Assembly: GCF_002865645.1 (NCBI RefSeq)
Contig: NW_020194685.1
Location: forward strand, 744,001 to 808,000
DNA: 64,000 nucleotides
DNA from: Hyaloscypha bicolor E
Lineage: Eukaryota > Ascomycota > Leotiomycetes > Helotiales > Hyaloscyphaceae
Reading direction: 5' to 3'
The notes under the pieces are model-generated. The model made no database searches. It worked only from the letters and a program-made list of their open reading frames with translations, and was not told where the DNA came from. The translations under genes were made by a program, and so were the position numbers. Positions 2,372 through 62,444 of the stretch are shown here, in pieces; within the stretch, counting starts at the first letter, position 1, and the number at the start of each line of letters is the position of its first letter.

Positions 2372-3398
2372 ATGCCTCTGGAGGAACAGAGGCCGGTACC
2401 GCCAGTGCCTCTTACAGAAAGTCCGAATAGCGTCATGACTGAGCGATCGGAGAGTCCCAATCAGCAGGAAGAAGCATCTCCAACCACGGACCGTCATCAA
2501 CGACAGTTCATAATCATCCCCGAAGAGCATCAGCGCAAGGCACCAAGTAACCTCAACCTCCACCCATACACGCGCCCACTCACCATCTCGGACCTTGAGT
2601 CCTGTGTTGTTCTCGAGAATGCCGCCTTCACTAATCCAGAAGAACGTGCCACGAGAGAAAAGGCAAGTGTTCCGGGGCAGGAATCGCCTGGTTGAGCACG
2701 TGACTACCTTCCGATTGCGGCAAGGTGTCTGTACAGCATTTACTGACGCCTCATATAGTTCAGATACCGTCTTTCGAGATGTGGTGAACTCTGTCTCGGC
2801 ATCTTCTGCACTGTTGTGCCTGGCTCCGGAATCAACGCAGAAACACTTGCAACCGGCAAGCCGGTAGAGACCAGTCGACACAATGGGGCAATTAGCGTCT
2901 TACTCGGCCATGTCGTTGCTGCCAAAACGAATGACCTCATAGCCTCTGACGAGTCTATGGGTGTGCCCGAAGACTGGGATTCCCCACATCCAAAGCCTTC
3001 CAATCTTGGCCATCAGGAAGCTGGACGGACGATTGTTATTCATTCTGTCGCTATATTGCCGGCTTTTCAGGGACGGGGTCTGGGGAGAGTTTTAGTGATG
3101 GCGTATATGCAGCAGATGAACGGAGCTGGCATTGCTGATAGGTTGGCGTTGATTGCTCATGATGTGAGTTTGAACTTCTGGCTCTCTTCCAAATAGGAGG
3201 TTAATGAAGATAACAGCCTAAGGTGGCTTGGTATGAGAAGCTTGGTTTTAGCAATAAGGGAAAGGGTAAGGCTCAATTTGGTGGTGGTGGCTGGTACGAT
3301 CTGGTGCGTTGCCTAACTCTAATCCCCTGTTACCCCAGCTGACTTTCCTCAAGGTCTTCGAGTTGAAAGCGTTGGAGCCAAGGGCAGCCTATGGCTAG
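2372..3398 (+). CDS. GNAT-family (arylalkylamine-like) N-acetyltransferase
   Basis: Acetyl-CoA-dependent N-acetyltransferase of about 275 aa, probably of the AANAT/polyamine type known in fungi. Exons are 2372-2662, 2759-3163, 3217-3303 and 3354-3398. A Pro/Ser-rich leader (residues 1-60) is followed by the AANAT-like ENAAFTNPEERATREK..FRYRLSRCGELCLGIF block. GNAT motif A is VIHSVAILPAFQGRGLG, whose Q-x-x-G-x-G loop binds the CoA pyrophosphate, and motif B is VAWYEKLGF. Intron 1 (2663-2758) has a GC donor (AAG|gcaagt) and a TACTGAC branch site; its junction K|FRYRL is exact. The last intron can end at 3338 or 3353, both in frame (5 residues difference). The substrate cannot be told from sequence. 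It is not clustered with related genes. Confidence 0.85.
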
Positions 3399-56895: not shown

Positions 56896-56903
56896 GGGGA
56901 TCG
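56896..56903. repeat. Target-site duplication, left copy (ggggatcg)
   Basis: Eight bases immediately left of the transposon end are identical to 62437-62444. Eight base pairs is the hallmark duplication length of hAT elements. A 7-bp reading is possible if the right-end G is counted as part of the element. Confidence 0.85.
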
Positions 56904-56996
56904 CAGTGTGGGCTCCGATAAATTATCGATCGAAATTATCGATTAGTAATCGTTATCGGCTAAGCGATCGATAAACGATCAATATCGATAATTATC

Positions 56997-57480
56997 ATCA
57001 ATAAAAGTGGGCCCAGCCATTAAACGAGCCCCATTACGGCTTTCTAGTTCAATTATAAACCAATTAGTATTAAGATTAGTATAAAAGTATACTATTATTA
57101 CTATACTATTAGACTTTTTAACTTTTTATTTAATAGTCTATTATATAACATAGACTAGCTAGTATTTAATCCAGTTATTAATAATTCCATTAATAAAAGT
57201 GGGCCCAGCCAGCCCTTAAGCAAGCCCCATCGCCTCAATAATCATTAATAAAAGTGGGCCCAGCCAGCCCTTAAGCGAGCCCCATCGCCTCAATAATCAT
57301 TAATAAAAGTGGGCCCAGCCAGCTATTAAGCAAGTCCCATCACATAAACATCTCGCTTTCTAGTTCAATTATAAACCAATTAGTATAAAGATTAGTATAA
57401 AAGTAGACTATTATAAATATACTATTATACTTTCTATTTAATAGTCTATTATATAACATAGACTAGCCAGTATTTAATAC
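56997..57480. repeat. Subterminal direct repeats of the transposon (55-bp tandem units and a ~130-bp duplication)
   Basis: A unit containing AATAAAAGTGGGCCCAGCC occurs at about 56997, 57190, 57245 and 57300; the last three are tandem with a 55-bp period and also share TTAAGCAAGCCCCATC. Around them, a block of about 130 bp beginning CTTTCTAGTTCAATTATAAA occurs twice (about 57038-57180 and 57354-57480). Subterminal repeats of this kind bind transposase in other hAT elements; here that role is inference. Confidence 0.85.
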
Positions 57481-57590
57481 ATAATACTAAGATTTATACT
57501 ACTATTTCTTCCAAAAAAGATTAAAATTTTCATACTCTCTTTTATTCTCTCTTTAATATATAATAGTACTTTATCTTCCATTATTCAAAC

Positions 57591-59780
57591 ATGGCTTCTG
57601 AATCTGCCTTATTAATCTATTAAGCCTCTACTAATATAGACTCGACTTAATCCAAATCTAATTCCAAATAGGGAGAACTTGCAAGAGCTATTTGGGCTTA
57701 TACTCGTCTCGGGTATCTAGATACAGGAGAACTACCCAAATACTACTATTGTCTTCCTTATAAAAAGGAAAATCTACCGAATATTTATTTGACTTCAGTC
57801 TCTACTAATTAATGCAATTATCTTAAGTTAGTATATAATATTACTATTAAGAGCGGATCGGAAATCAGTCCATTTTAATTAAAAGTAATTAACTAGCTAT
57901 AATAGCTTTACTTATAAATAGAGTTATCTGGCCAAATAACTGAAATTAATATATATATCTTTTAATAATACCTTAATCGGGTAGTAATTTATAAAGCTTT
58001 AATTTCATTAATTATTATCTATAATCTACCTTTTCAAATAATTAAATAGCCCGAATTTCATACCTTTTATTAAGTACTTAATCCAGAATCTCAGCCCTTT
58101 CTTTCTATAACTTACTCTTATATAAGAAAAAAGCTTAGGGAGTACTAGATTAGCTTAAAGGATATTATATAACGAAAACTCTAGTCTGTAGTTTCAAGTA
58201 TTCATCTCGCTCTTAATATCTGGACTTCTCTGCAAGGATATCTTCTTTTAGATATTATTATATATTTTATTAAATAACAAGATAAGAATTATATAAAGGC
58301 CCTTCTAGCTCTTTATATAGTACCAGGTTATTTAGGAGAAAACCAATTTACGGTTTTATAACCTGTACTTTAAGACTATAGTATTACCAAATAACTTGGA
58401 GCTATTATTAGTAATAATACTAATATAAATAGTATATTATATCAAGCTATTCAGGCTTATTTACTAAGGGAAGAAGGATTAGAATAGAATACTTTGTAAT
58501 AGCGGGTTCATTATTTAGGACATATTATTAACCTTTCTATATAAGCCTTTTTATTTCATAATATTTTTATAAATAGAGAATTAGAGGCATTTAATAAGTA
58601 AGAGAACTTGGGAGATTTGGAAGCCCTATTAAGTAATAAGGAAAAACAAATAAAATTTCGACTTTTGGGACCATTAGGCCAGCTTTATAATATTATTATA
58701 TATATTCGTTACTCTCCTAGTTAGATTACCAGATTTAAAGCTCTTACTAGGAGAATAATTCCTCTTAATAATCGGATATAATAGAATAGCTAGTATATAA
58801 TACTTAATATTACTCTTTAGTAACATACTTATCTTAATACCTATTACAAGAAGTATCTTGCAAATCTGAAATCAGATTACCTCAGTCCGGAAGACTAGGA
58901 AAGGCTTCGGATAATTTCTACCTTTCTCAAACCATTCTATAAAGCTACTCTTGAGACTCAAGGAAATACTATAATTATTAATCGGGTACTTTTTATAATA
59001 GATATTTTAATTCGAGTATTTAATAGATTACTAGTAAATAATAATTTTTATACTAATTTTTATACTAATCTTTATACTAATCTTTATACTAATCTTTATT
59101 ACTTGAATTAATAATACTAACTATAGTATAATAGAATATATATATAAATAATAAAGACTTTTATACTCGAATCCGGAAAGAGTAGGAGGTCTTTAATACA
59201 TATTACCGCAAGTCCGATAATACGCCTCTTTATACTACTGCTCTTATACTTTATCCGAATCGCTATACAAAGTATATTAGGGCTAATTAGGAGAAAAGAT
59301 GGGTTTAGCCTACCTTAACTAAAGTCAAAAAGCTTTAGGAGAAATATCGAGATTAGATATCTACCCCTAATAGTTCGGTACTAGTCGAGGAAATTAAATA
59401 GCTAGTAGAAAAAGAACTAGATAATTTTAATGAGATTACTCAGATATTAGGGAAATATATACGGCCGGTAAGTTAAGATAAATATAAGGATTATTATTAG
59501 AAGGAGCTATATAATATTAGGGACTTGTCTATACTTTAATAGTAGTATTAAGATATATAAAGAAGGTACTGGCCAAAGCTCTCACTTATGGCAATTAATA
59601 TTCTCTTAATTCTAGTAATAAGTACTAAAGCAGAGCAAATCTTTTCAGGTACTCGCTATATAGTATTATGGGATAGAACCCAAATAATAGCTAAGACTTT
59701 AGAGATAATAGAATATTTAAAGTATTAGAAAAGAAATAGGATTTTGAGTATTTTTATTAATACTAGTAAAAGGTAGTAAG
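57591..59780 (+). pseudogene. hAT transposase relic with hATC dimerisation domain
   Basis: A reading frame can be followed from ATG 57591 for about 730 codons, interrupted by many TAA/TAG/TGA codons. Near the start it reads ELARAIWAYTRLGYLDTGEL and KYYYCLPYKKE, fitting a BED-type zinc finger. About 58195-58370 reads IHLALNIWTSLQGYLLLDII and then VPGYLGENQF, matching the hAT catalytic-region pattern (xDLWTS..GENxA). About 58520-58560 contains GHIINLS, also typical. The C-terminus (about 59570-59735) reads YWPKLSLMAINIL then AEQIFSGTRYIVLWDRTQII, the hATC dimerisation motif. No functional transposase can be made. Confidence 0.85.
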
Positions 59781-59899
59781 ATTAGTATAAAAATTAGTAT
59801 AATTGCAATTGTTTTCTTTATAATTTATAACTACTAGTATCTCAAAGACATAGTACCTAGCTAACTACCGCTTTTACTAAAGAAGTTTCTCAAATATTA

Positions 59900-60992
59900 T
59901 TAAGTAGCTATAGTATCTTTCATAACCCATAACTTAGAGTTAGATAGAAAGACATATTAGTACAAGCCATTCTTTGGCTTCTTTCTAGTATATACTAGTA
60001 ATATTACTATTTTGTAGCCTTTTCGAGATTTAGTAAAGAAGTGAAAGCTAGTAGTATTTAACTCAGCCTCGGATTCTGGCTACTAAGTAGTAGGACCAGG
60101 AAGGTTAACCCATTTATTATCTCCTCATACCTAACTAGCCAAGTTTCTCCAAATAGCCTTTTCGCCTGGTATAAAGAATTTAGTAGGACTAATAAGTATA
60201 ATATAATTACTATATAATAATTAGTAATTAATATAAAGATAAGTAAAATCTATACCTACTATATAATAATCTAATCTTATAAAACAAGGATCTCTTCTTC
60301 TTTTGCCAAGTTTCCTGCTATACTATAAACTCAATATACTTATATTTCTATTTTAGTTAGTTTTATACTAATCTTTATACTAATCCAAAAAGAGGTTATA
60401 TACCTTGGCCAAAGCTCTTTATATACCATTAGCCTTTTCTTTCATTTTATTCTCTGGAACTCGCTTAATCTCTTTCTCTTGATTAAGCTTTTCCTTAGTC
60501 TTCCATATCTCCTCAAACTATATATTATTCTCGGAATTATATTTAATATCTTCTTATACCGGATTACTATTATCCCAAACTATATATGAGCCACTATACT
60601 TACTATAGCTAAGTAATTATTCAACTGCTTTCTAATTCTTTCCTTATTATTCTCTAAAGCCAGATTAGTATAAAGATTAGTATAGGAATATTCTGAAAAT
60701 ATCTCCTTAATTTAATACTTATAATAGACTCCTATACCATTTCCTACTATCTTAATAGTAAAGTACTCTTATATACTACCGAGCTTACTACCTTGCGTTT
60801 TGCTACTATAATTATACCTTGATCTACTGCCTTCGCCTTCTTAATCTTAGTACGGATAGGGTCTTTTGCAAGAGCTTTATTATACTTGTATGCTTTTATA
60901 GTATTTGGGTTTTGAGACAGATCCGTTAGTACTTTTCTCTTGCGAGCAGTAGTACGGACAGATCTAATAGAAGAGGCTAGTTGAGATACCAT
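59900..60992 (-). pseudogene. Unidentified reverse-strand gene relic inside the transposon
   Basis: An 81-codon open frame (60992-60747) starts MVSQLASSIRSVRTTARKRK and is rich in Lys/Arg. Beyond its stop, coding-like text continues leftward with scattered stops, including a Lys/Glu-rich helical stretch (EEIWKTKEKLNQEKEIKRVP at about 60520-60450) and KFFIPGEKAIWRNLA and NTTSFHFFTKSRKGYK near 60190-60020. I do not recognise the family. Its start faces the histone-like relic (540 bp apart), and its 3' end faces the transposase. The basic composition would suit a nucleic-acid or chromatin contact, but this is speculation. Confidence 0.5.
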
Positions 60993-61534
60993 ATTAATAT
61001 GGCTACTATCCTATAATATTATAATTAGTATAAAGATTAATATAATATAAATATAGACTTACCTCAGGCTCTGGGAATAATTCAATAATAATCGGTAATA
61101 TTTTGTAATTACTAATACATTTGGTATACTAATTATAGTCCATTACTATAGAACATACTATAAGGACGATCTATATAGAGATTAGTAGATTAATTAGTAT
61201 ATTAGAATACCAACTTATAGGTTATAGTATAGAGTTATATAATAGTATAGTTGAGTTATTAAGAAGAAATCAAAAGGTAAGCAAGATAAGGTAAAATAAA
61301 ATTGACTTTATAATATAAAATAATTCACTTTTAAGGCATATGAAAATTTTTTTAAGCTATTACCTTACTCTTCCCTATTGCTTTACCTTAGCTAATACCT
61401 TTCCTTTAACTATACTACTTCAATCCCTTAATTAATCCCTCAATTAACCCCTTCTATAGTATATCTCTTAATTTATATTAATTACTATACTAATCAAGAT
61501 ATAGTAATCGCAATCTCTAGTCAATTATTTAACT

Positions 61535-62092
61535 ATGGTACGAACCAAGCAAACTAATGGCAAGCGTATTACTTCTAGGAAGGCTCTTACAGGCAAGGCT
61601 CCAAGAAAGACACTTGGCAGAAAAGGCCATATTCCTGCTATTATATAAAAGAGAAAATATAGGTTCAGACCTGGCAATTAGTTAATTAGTAAAAATATTA
61701 GTATATCTACTAACTGGATTTATAGCCAAGGCCCTTCAAGAAATCAGAAAATATTAGAGGAGTACTAATTTATTAATTCCAAAGGCACTATTTCATTGAT
61801 TAGTAAAGGAGATTTTAGCTCAGGAGAATAGACAAGATATATACATCCAAGCTTCGGCTTTATATACTTTACAAGAGTCTACGGAGGCGCTTCTTATTAC
61901 GGAGTTTGAGTATAAGTCATTTTTCTTAATTATACTAATTTTTATACTAATCTAATTCCAGTAATAAACCTTATAGCCATTTATATAAAGCGGGTTACTA
62001 TCCAGAAAAAGGATATAAAGCTAGTCCAATAAATGAGATTAGGAATAATGGGCATTAGTAAGGTTAGCGAACGCCTTATAACAGTACTATAG
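61535..62092 (+). pseudogene. Histone H3-like gene relic carried by the transposon
   Basis: ATG 61535 opens MVRTKQTNGKRITSRKA and GKAPRKTLGRKG, matching the H3 tail (ARTKQT, GKAPRK). RKYRFRPG follows. An intron with a perfect TACTAAC branch site and TAG acceptor (ending 61727-61728) lies where the frame breaks; its first bases read ATTAGT, as if a GT donor had mutated. Downstream the histone fold continues: KALQEIRKY, RSTNLLIPKALFH, LVKEILAQENRQD, IYIQASALYTLQESTEALL and, after a second break, NLIAIYIKRVTIQKKDIKLV (compare H3 NLCAIHAKRVTIQ and KDIQLA). At least four in-frame stops are present. Between EI and QASA it is one residue longer than canonical H3, a CenH3-like trait, yet the tail is H3-like. 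Confidence 0.87.
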
Positions 62093-62436
62093 GGTAGTTA
62101 GTTTACTTGGGTTACTGGCAAAGTAACCAGGTCAGGCATCAGGGAATTAACCTTTATATCTAAGGCAAAGCAGTTAGCTAGCCATTAGATTAATAAAGTA
62201 ATAACTCAAATCATTACTTTTTCAATATATCTCAAATTAGTTATATTCTTTAAAGAACTAGTATAAAGATTAATTAATTAATTAATTAATTAGAACAGAG
62301 AGCAGGAGGGGCAGATTCTGCCGGGCCCCTCACCGCCTAGAACGATAATTATCGCCAATTATCGATAATTATCGATTATCGACAAATTAGCGCGATTATC
62401 TAATCATCGCTTATCAAGCTTATCAGAGCCCACACT

Positions 62437-62444
62437 GGGGATCG
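62437..62444. repeat. Target-site duplication, right copy (ggggatcg)
   Basis: Eight bases just right of the transposon, identical to 56896-56903. Its position within an exon of the CorA-like paralog lets the pre-insertion sequence be inferred. Confidence 0.85.

Follow-up and report, generated by a model that had tools for sequence, protein, structure and literature searches.

A histone H3-like gene carried by RIP-damaged hAT-type transposons in Hyaloscypha bicolor

A histone H3-like gene, designated H3L, is cargo of a family of hAT-type transposons in the genome of Hyaloscypha bicolor (82.0 Mb, 76 contigs). The DNA examined comprised positions 744001–808000 of contig C71, a stretch of 64,000 nucleotides referred to below as the window; positions given without a contig name are counted from its first letter. 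The H3L segment was detected at 28 loci of the genome (29 matches, since one locus is split in two; all 28 candidates scored). The transposase segment was detected at no fewer than 30 loci of the element family (40 of 106 candidates scored), a count that excludes more diverged relatives and short motif matches. At 28 of the 30 loci found, the transposase has H3L next to it, and for this reason H3L is regarded as part of the element and not as a nested insertion. The distance between the two genes was 1690–1770 bp in 24 of the 28 loci, about 2.1–2.2 kb in two, and 8.7–9.5 kb in two more; the wide-spacing copies look as if something had inserted between transposase and H3L. An initial annotation of the window had proposed a histone H3 gene travelling as cargo in a hAT-type transposon, and this proposal was borne out by the inverted repeats, the 8-bp duplications, the hAT transposase, and the distribution of H3L over the loci. 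It had also named copies without the H3 segment as the observation that would speak against cargo. Such copies were looked for, and both loci found without H3L are fragmentary. The one on contig C46 (L042) loses homology at element position 3225 and is thus truncated, and the one on contig C25 is a 442-bp fragment; both were rejected as complete H3-free elements.

Structure and genomic setting of the element

The window contains a complete element of 5534 bp (positions 56904–62437, no strand assigned), delimited by the breaks of homology with sister copies together with inverted repeats and target duplications. The left terminal inverted repeat is CAGTGTGGGCTCCGATAA (56904–56921, plus strand). 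The right one (62420–62437, minus strand) is its reverse complement with a single difference of the type produced by RIP, the C-to-T mutation of repeats. The element end type is CAGTGTGGGCTC. The left target-site duplication, GGGGATCG, occupies positions 56896–56903; the right one (62437–62444) reads GGGATCG after the terminal G and lacks one G of the full 8 bp plus inverted repeat. The 18-bp right end was recovered in all 12 copies searched and the left end in four of them; the left end was not found in the stretch fetched around the other eight. The 8-bp duplication was present in all four copies with both ends in hand: it was perfect in L009 and L017, had one C/T difference in L010, and shared one G in the window copy. 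A 25-bp subterminal repeat, CATTAATAAAAGTGGGCCCAGCCAG, occurs four times on the plus strand at 56996–57322 (starts 56996, 57188, 57243, and 57298, with up to four mismatches allowed).

The transposase gene is RIP-damaged and lies at 57591–59742 on the plus strand, with a predicted intron at 59033–59126. In the window copy, its dimerisation piece matched Dimer_Tnp_hAT (PF05699) with an E-value of 9e-4, below the curated cut-off. A profile made from three damaged copies matched 56 proteins at E ≤ 0.001 (best E 3e-167) among 7994 candidates scored; these matches contained PF27041/PF27039, and the near-full-length ones also contained the hAT dimerisation domain PF05699. By its inverted repeats, 8-bp duplications, and hAT transposase, the element belongs to the hAT superfamily.

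A damaged central open frame, read in 12 copies and predicted to have two exons, is located on the minus strand at 60370–60992 (ATG at 60992–60990). It had no Pfam match, and its N-terminus is basic and lysine-rich. A second, related hAT family is represented by L043 and L044, with a transposase 38% identical to that of the present family; these copies are also AT-rich and damaged. Since neither H3L nor the central frame had a match in the 6–7 kb fetched around L043 and L044, H3L seems to belong to the present hAT lineage.

In steps of 1 kb, the G+C content was 0.27–0.30 inside the element vs. 0.44–0.57 in the steps clear of it, the sole low exception outside being 0.39 at 48–49 kb. The element interrupts what is probably a host exon, because the flanks joined without it read as one minus-strand open frame of 175 codons (125 + 50) across the 56904|62437 junction; this joined frame had no Pfam match. 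A motif near TATACTAATYTTTATACTAAT (up to two mismatches, either strand) was seen at ten places in the element, the predicted introns and the subterminal region among them (starts 57063, 57379, 59037, 59061, 59781, 60364, 60664, 61024, 61685, and 61931), and was not found on the same terms at positions 1–56900 of the window. Possible explanations are a binding site or an intron unit that spreads.

Gene structure and identity of H3L

H3L occupies positions 61535–62092 on the plus strand, with predicted exons at 61535–61676, 61726–61909, and approximately 61962–62092. The H3 tail, alpha-N, alpha-2, and C-terminal pieces listed by the initial annotation were all recovered there (MVRTKQT..., GKAPRKTLG, KALQEIRKY, LQESTEALL, and KRVTIQKKDIKL), followed by the terminator TAG at 62090–62092. 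The translation, read through with X at stops, matched Pfam Histone with an E-value of 3.9e-23, and the best PDB chain was nucleosomal H3 (E 4.4e-29), so the alignment to H3, on which the identification had been made to depend, is significant. The histone H3 fold is indicated by this profile match of the window row, and its helices by the predicted structure of one relative, P0041 (described below). H3L does not have the features of canonical H3, namely ARKS at K9 and K27 and the C-terminus RRLRGERS.

The gene probably has two introns. Intron 1 is predicted at 61677–61725 (plus strand) with a GTTAGT donor, a TACTAAC branch-like site, and a TATAG acceptor; 7 of the 28 copies keep its GT donor, which the window copy has lost to mutation. 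Intron 2 is predicted at approximately 61910–61961 (plus strand), from GTATAAGT to TTCCAG, with a junction that leaves a 1-base frame discrepancy. Of the single intron claimed earlier, the presence of an intron stands and the number is probably to be corrected. The host H3 and host CenH3 genes are uninterrupted at the intron-1 position of H3L. Outside the element, L013 (C21:1287924–1288094, minus strand) is a solitary H3-like gene or relic without the RIP signature; an intron is predicted in it at the same position and phase as intron 1 of H3L, and elsewhere its frames are broken.

RIP damage

The element family is a recent burst that was subsequently subjected to heavy RIP, since its copies differ almost only by transitions. 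In the alignment of 12 copies over 4.9 kb, transitions made up 1297 of the 1337 two-allele columns, and the copies differed pairwise by a mean of 9.0% in transitions and 0.17% in transversions. The TpA/ApT ratio was 1.31 in the element vs. 0.72 in the left flank. An excess of C-to-T and G-to-A changes was observed, with CpA sites hit hardest. The alignment of 24 H3L copies (L037, L039, L040, and L041 were omitted from the 28) had 80 CpA-context sites; each of these was mutated in one copy or more, and 50 were mutated in three quarters of the copies or more. All 28 H3L copies in the genome are damaged. The stop codons reported in the H3 frame are present, and they are consistent with RIP, both in the TpA/ApT ratio and in the state of the CpA sites. 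Stops common to several copies were considered as proof of a dead ancestor, and this was rejected because near-saturated CpA sites let the same stops arise copy by copy.

Relatives and phylogenetic position of H3L

Relatives of H3L without stop codons were found in other Helotiales by two protein searches, beside many ordinary H3s (in one search, among the best 120 of 2869 matches). These were P0020 and P0046 from Hyaloscypha sp. PMI_1271, which are 95% identical to each other over a 43-aa overlap, P0042 from H. finlandica, and P0041 from Tricladium varicosporioides. Unlike the element H3L they lack stop codons, and they were compared as protein sequences. The window H3L is 53–65% identical to them, the closest named proteins among the matches listed, and 50% identical to both host H3 and host CenH3. 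P0041 has a slightly higher identity with host H3 (55.8%) than with the element H3L (53.0%). No Pyrenophora protein was named among the matches listed, either in the H3L protein searches (best 120 of 2869 in one) or in the transposase profile search. The AlphaFold model of P0041 has helices at residues 61–73, 80–93, 104–131, and 139–152 (mean pLDDT 72, with low confidence in the tail), and nucleosome H3 chains were its best PDB matches.

The element and all three relatives having that part (P0046, P0042, and P0041) have a common C-terminal extension, LVQRMR(L/R)G(M/L)MG, which is absent from host H3 and CenH3; the C-terminus of host H3 is LARRLRGERS. In the window copy, the R codon of the extension has become a stop, and L015 and L020 read R. 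In a tree of 25 rows, built after one Kluyveromyces row was dropped, the element H3L grouped with P0046, P0042, and P0041 (80/83), and host H3 and CenH3 were placed on the opposite side (90/81). Three of the 22 inner branches of this tree are firm, a single host CenH3 served as yardstick, and L013 was too long to place.

The stop-free relatives, the tree placement, and the lack of an intron at the intron-1 position of the host genes together argue against a recent copying of host H3. The initial annotation's view that host H3 was not captured recently is supported by relatives with the same C-terminal extension in other fungi and, with moderate support, by the position of host H3 and CenH3 outside the H3L group. 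The alternative that host H3 was captured recently, or entered by nested retro-insertion, has H3 homology in its favor and nothing further. It was rejected, and we judge it extremely improbable given an identity to host H3 of 50%, the predicted introns, the intron-1 position that is absent from host H3 and CenH3 and present in the solitary relic L013, and the same place of H3L at 28 loci.

The extra residue before loop 1, in which a resemblance to CenH3 had been seen, is real in the window row, and P0046 has more extra residues there, as does host CenH3. This feature, together with identity to host CenH3 no lower than that to host H3, would agree with a CenH3-like variant by which the element biases its own segregation. 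H3L and host CenH3 were not grouped in the tree (moderate support), however, and the tail is of the H3 type with the RTKQT K4 motif, as had been noted; the H3L described in 2013 also matched neither class (PMC3538342). H3L therefore does not qualify as CenH3/CENP-A, and a CenH3-like role is very unlikely in our opinion.

Histone tail and possible function

Aligned to host H3, the tail of the window copy keeps RTKQT with K4 and requires an insertion of about six residues. Its sequence T-S-R-K-A-L-T-G-K-A-P-R-K stands against T-A-R-K-S-T-G-G-K-A-P-R-K in host H3, and ARKS around K27 is absent. At the positions of host R8-K-S-T-G12 the rows read R-K-A-L-T (window), G-K-T-gap-T (P0020), R-K-T-R-A (P0042), and K-R-P-V-A (P0041), S10, T11, and G12 being changed in all four rows that have a tail. 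The T of the window A-L-T is also A or I in sister copies. The Helotiales relatives differ considerably from one another in the tail, and the exact RTKQT was seen only in the window and P0020.

In Neurospora, an additional H3 gene that carried S10A or T11A is reported to have cut DNA methylation despite the wild-type H3, in five of five resistance-yielding transformations for each (PMC3248561). The in vitro activity of DIM-5 was greatly lowered by S10A and T11A, abolished by R8A and G12P, and unaffected by K4L, A7M, and +G13 (Adhvaryu et al., 2011; PMC3248561). K27L was without effect in vivo in the same organism (PMC3248561), so the loss of the K27 motif would add nothing in the Neurospora assay. 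The mutants described there resemble H3L in being changed at residues after K9 and differ from it in being engineered alleles of the host gene, not a transposon gene (PMC3248561). By analogy, a cargo H3 with changes at R8–G12 should interfere with H3K9 methylation in a semi-dominant way. The H. bicolor genome has one Pre-SET match and several DNA methylase matches, which makes the H3K9/DNA-methylation pathway a plausible target here.

We tentatively propose that the H3L product acted as a variant H3 that blunted H3K9-methylation silencing of the element, a reading, drawn from sequence comparison, to which we give somewhat less than an even chance. H3L would have been translated while the element family was active and, with its histone-fold helices kept, would have entered nucleosomes with host H4. 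Its tail, in which the K4 motif is kept and S-T-G after K9 is replaced, would be a poor substrate for an H3K9 methyltransferase of the DIM-5/Clr4 type. As one component of host chromatin, H3L could weaken H3K9me3, HP1 binding, and DNA methylation, and under weaker silencing the transposase gene might be expressed. At a guess, heterochromatin-linked RIP was perhaps weakened as well. Any protection from RIP was incomplete, because the element copies are heavily RIPped. RIP of genomic repeats without RID has been reported in a 2025 study on eu- and heterochromatic repeats (PMC11969663).

Selection on H3L was assessed against the old copy L045 (C33:1012200–1018000), the sole branch testable with non-RIP changes. 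Transversions in H3L were found at 22 of 279 codon positions 1+2 and at 7 of 138 positions 3; the transposase had 35 of 1315 and 15 of 657, respectively, with no bias either. Transversions by codon position thus gave no sign of purifying selection on H3L along the L045 branch, and L045 probably drifted after death, since its transposase is without codon-position bias as well. By transversions, H3L was approximately three times more diverged from L045 than the transposase, the introns included (8 of 104), and a second comparison was alike. This excess suggests exchange with another lineage, which fits, or fast evolution. When L045 was compared with window positions 61480–61930, the H3L excess was observed, and the central-frame stretch was raised too.

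The lack of codon-position bias, the divergence above that of the transposase, and the damage to every H3L copy in the genome could also be explained if H3L were a neutral passenger, an H3-type gene captured by chance (transduplication) and carried without function for the element; drift was thought possible by the authors of the 2013 study (PMC3538342). This explanation is a possible one, although we place it below an even chance and slightly behind the anti-silencing reading: it is less easily reconciled with the retention of H3L at nearly all loci found, with stop-free relatives sharing a C-terminal extension in other taxa, and with the recurrence of H3 genes in fungal hATs of separate orders. 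H3L might instead aid transposition or act on chromatin otherwise, by marking donor DNA, by disturbing host nucleosomes through dosage, or by working with the central protein. The layout of the Pyrenophora element also has a central frame beside H3L (PMC3538342), yet the central frame here had no Pfam match, and we consider such a role unlikely.

Comparison with known histone-carrying elements

The initial annotation was aware of no hAT family with histone cargo; such elements had in fact been described in 2013 and 2019 (PMC3538342, PMC6710886). Manning et al. (2013) reported a 5.6-kb hAT in Pyrenophora tritici-repentis consisting of inverted repeats, transposase, central ORF, and H3L; its 26 H3L copies belong to a long and a short form and are mostly intact, with ESTs (PMC3538342). 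According to the published description, the element of H. bicolor agrees with it in layout and length: about 5.6 kb, transposase with a dimerisation domain, central ORF, and H3L between inverted repeats, and tens of copies (PMC3538342). The H3L described for Pyrenophora likewise has tail insertions and is neither H3 nor CenH3 (PMC3538342). The copies there are very similar, mostly intact, and with ESTs, whereas those of H. bicolor are RIP-killed (PMC3538342). Moreover, the Pyrenophora gene is derived from a captured transcript according to Dhillon et al. (PMC6710886), while H3L of H. bicolor has predicted introns.

Dhillon et al. (2019) reported RIP-killed H3-carrying hATs in six Mycosphaerellaceae, including Pseudocercospora fijiensis, Cercospora, and Sphaerulina (PMC6710886). 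As described, these share with the present element 8-bp duplications, H3-like cargo, RIP damage, and AT-richness (PMC6710886). The P. fijiensis hAT is 9.5–9.9 kb long, and each element contains an H3-like gene in one or two copies, which are intronless and attributed to a captured transcript (PMC6710886). The element of H. bicolor, in contrast, is 5.5 kb long and has one H3L with two predicted introns. It does not represent an intronless H3 retrocopy of the kind found in the Cercospora/Pseudocercospora clade, intron 1 being GT-AG in 7 of 28 copies. Among the titles and abstract openings listed in searches of the open-licence literature, no third report of an H3-carrying hAT, nor any in Leotiomycetes, was found. 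New here are the stop-free Helotiales relatives with the C-terminal extension, the two predicted introns, and the tail that keeps K4 and is altered after K9.

A bolder possibility is that the H3L-hATs are one old three-gene transposon lineage, present in at least Leotiomycetes and Dothideomycetes, with its own anti-silencing histone that poisons heterochromatin from within the nucleosome. We regard this as rather unlikely; Dhillon et al. found their hAT consensus sequences to be without similarity to the Pyrenophora hAT and took the events as independent (PMC6710886). If it were true, H3L would take the active K4 mark and be unable to take or display H3K9 methylation, which would make it a counter-defence of the transposon against silencing by the fungus and against heterochromatin-linked RIP.

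Histone-carrying hATs were earlier treated as separate captures in Dothideomycetes (PMC3538342, PMC6710886). The Pyrenophora-like layout, together with the predicted introns and the stop-free Helotiales relatives, suggests an older, maintained association between hAT transposons and the histone. The question why a transposon carries a histone is now directly testable, since the H3-tail mutants of Neurospora already supply an assay for the role of H3L.
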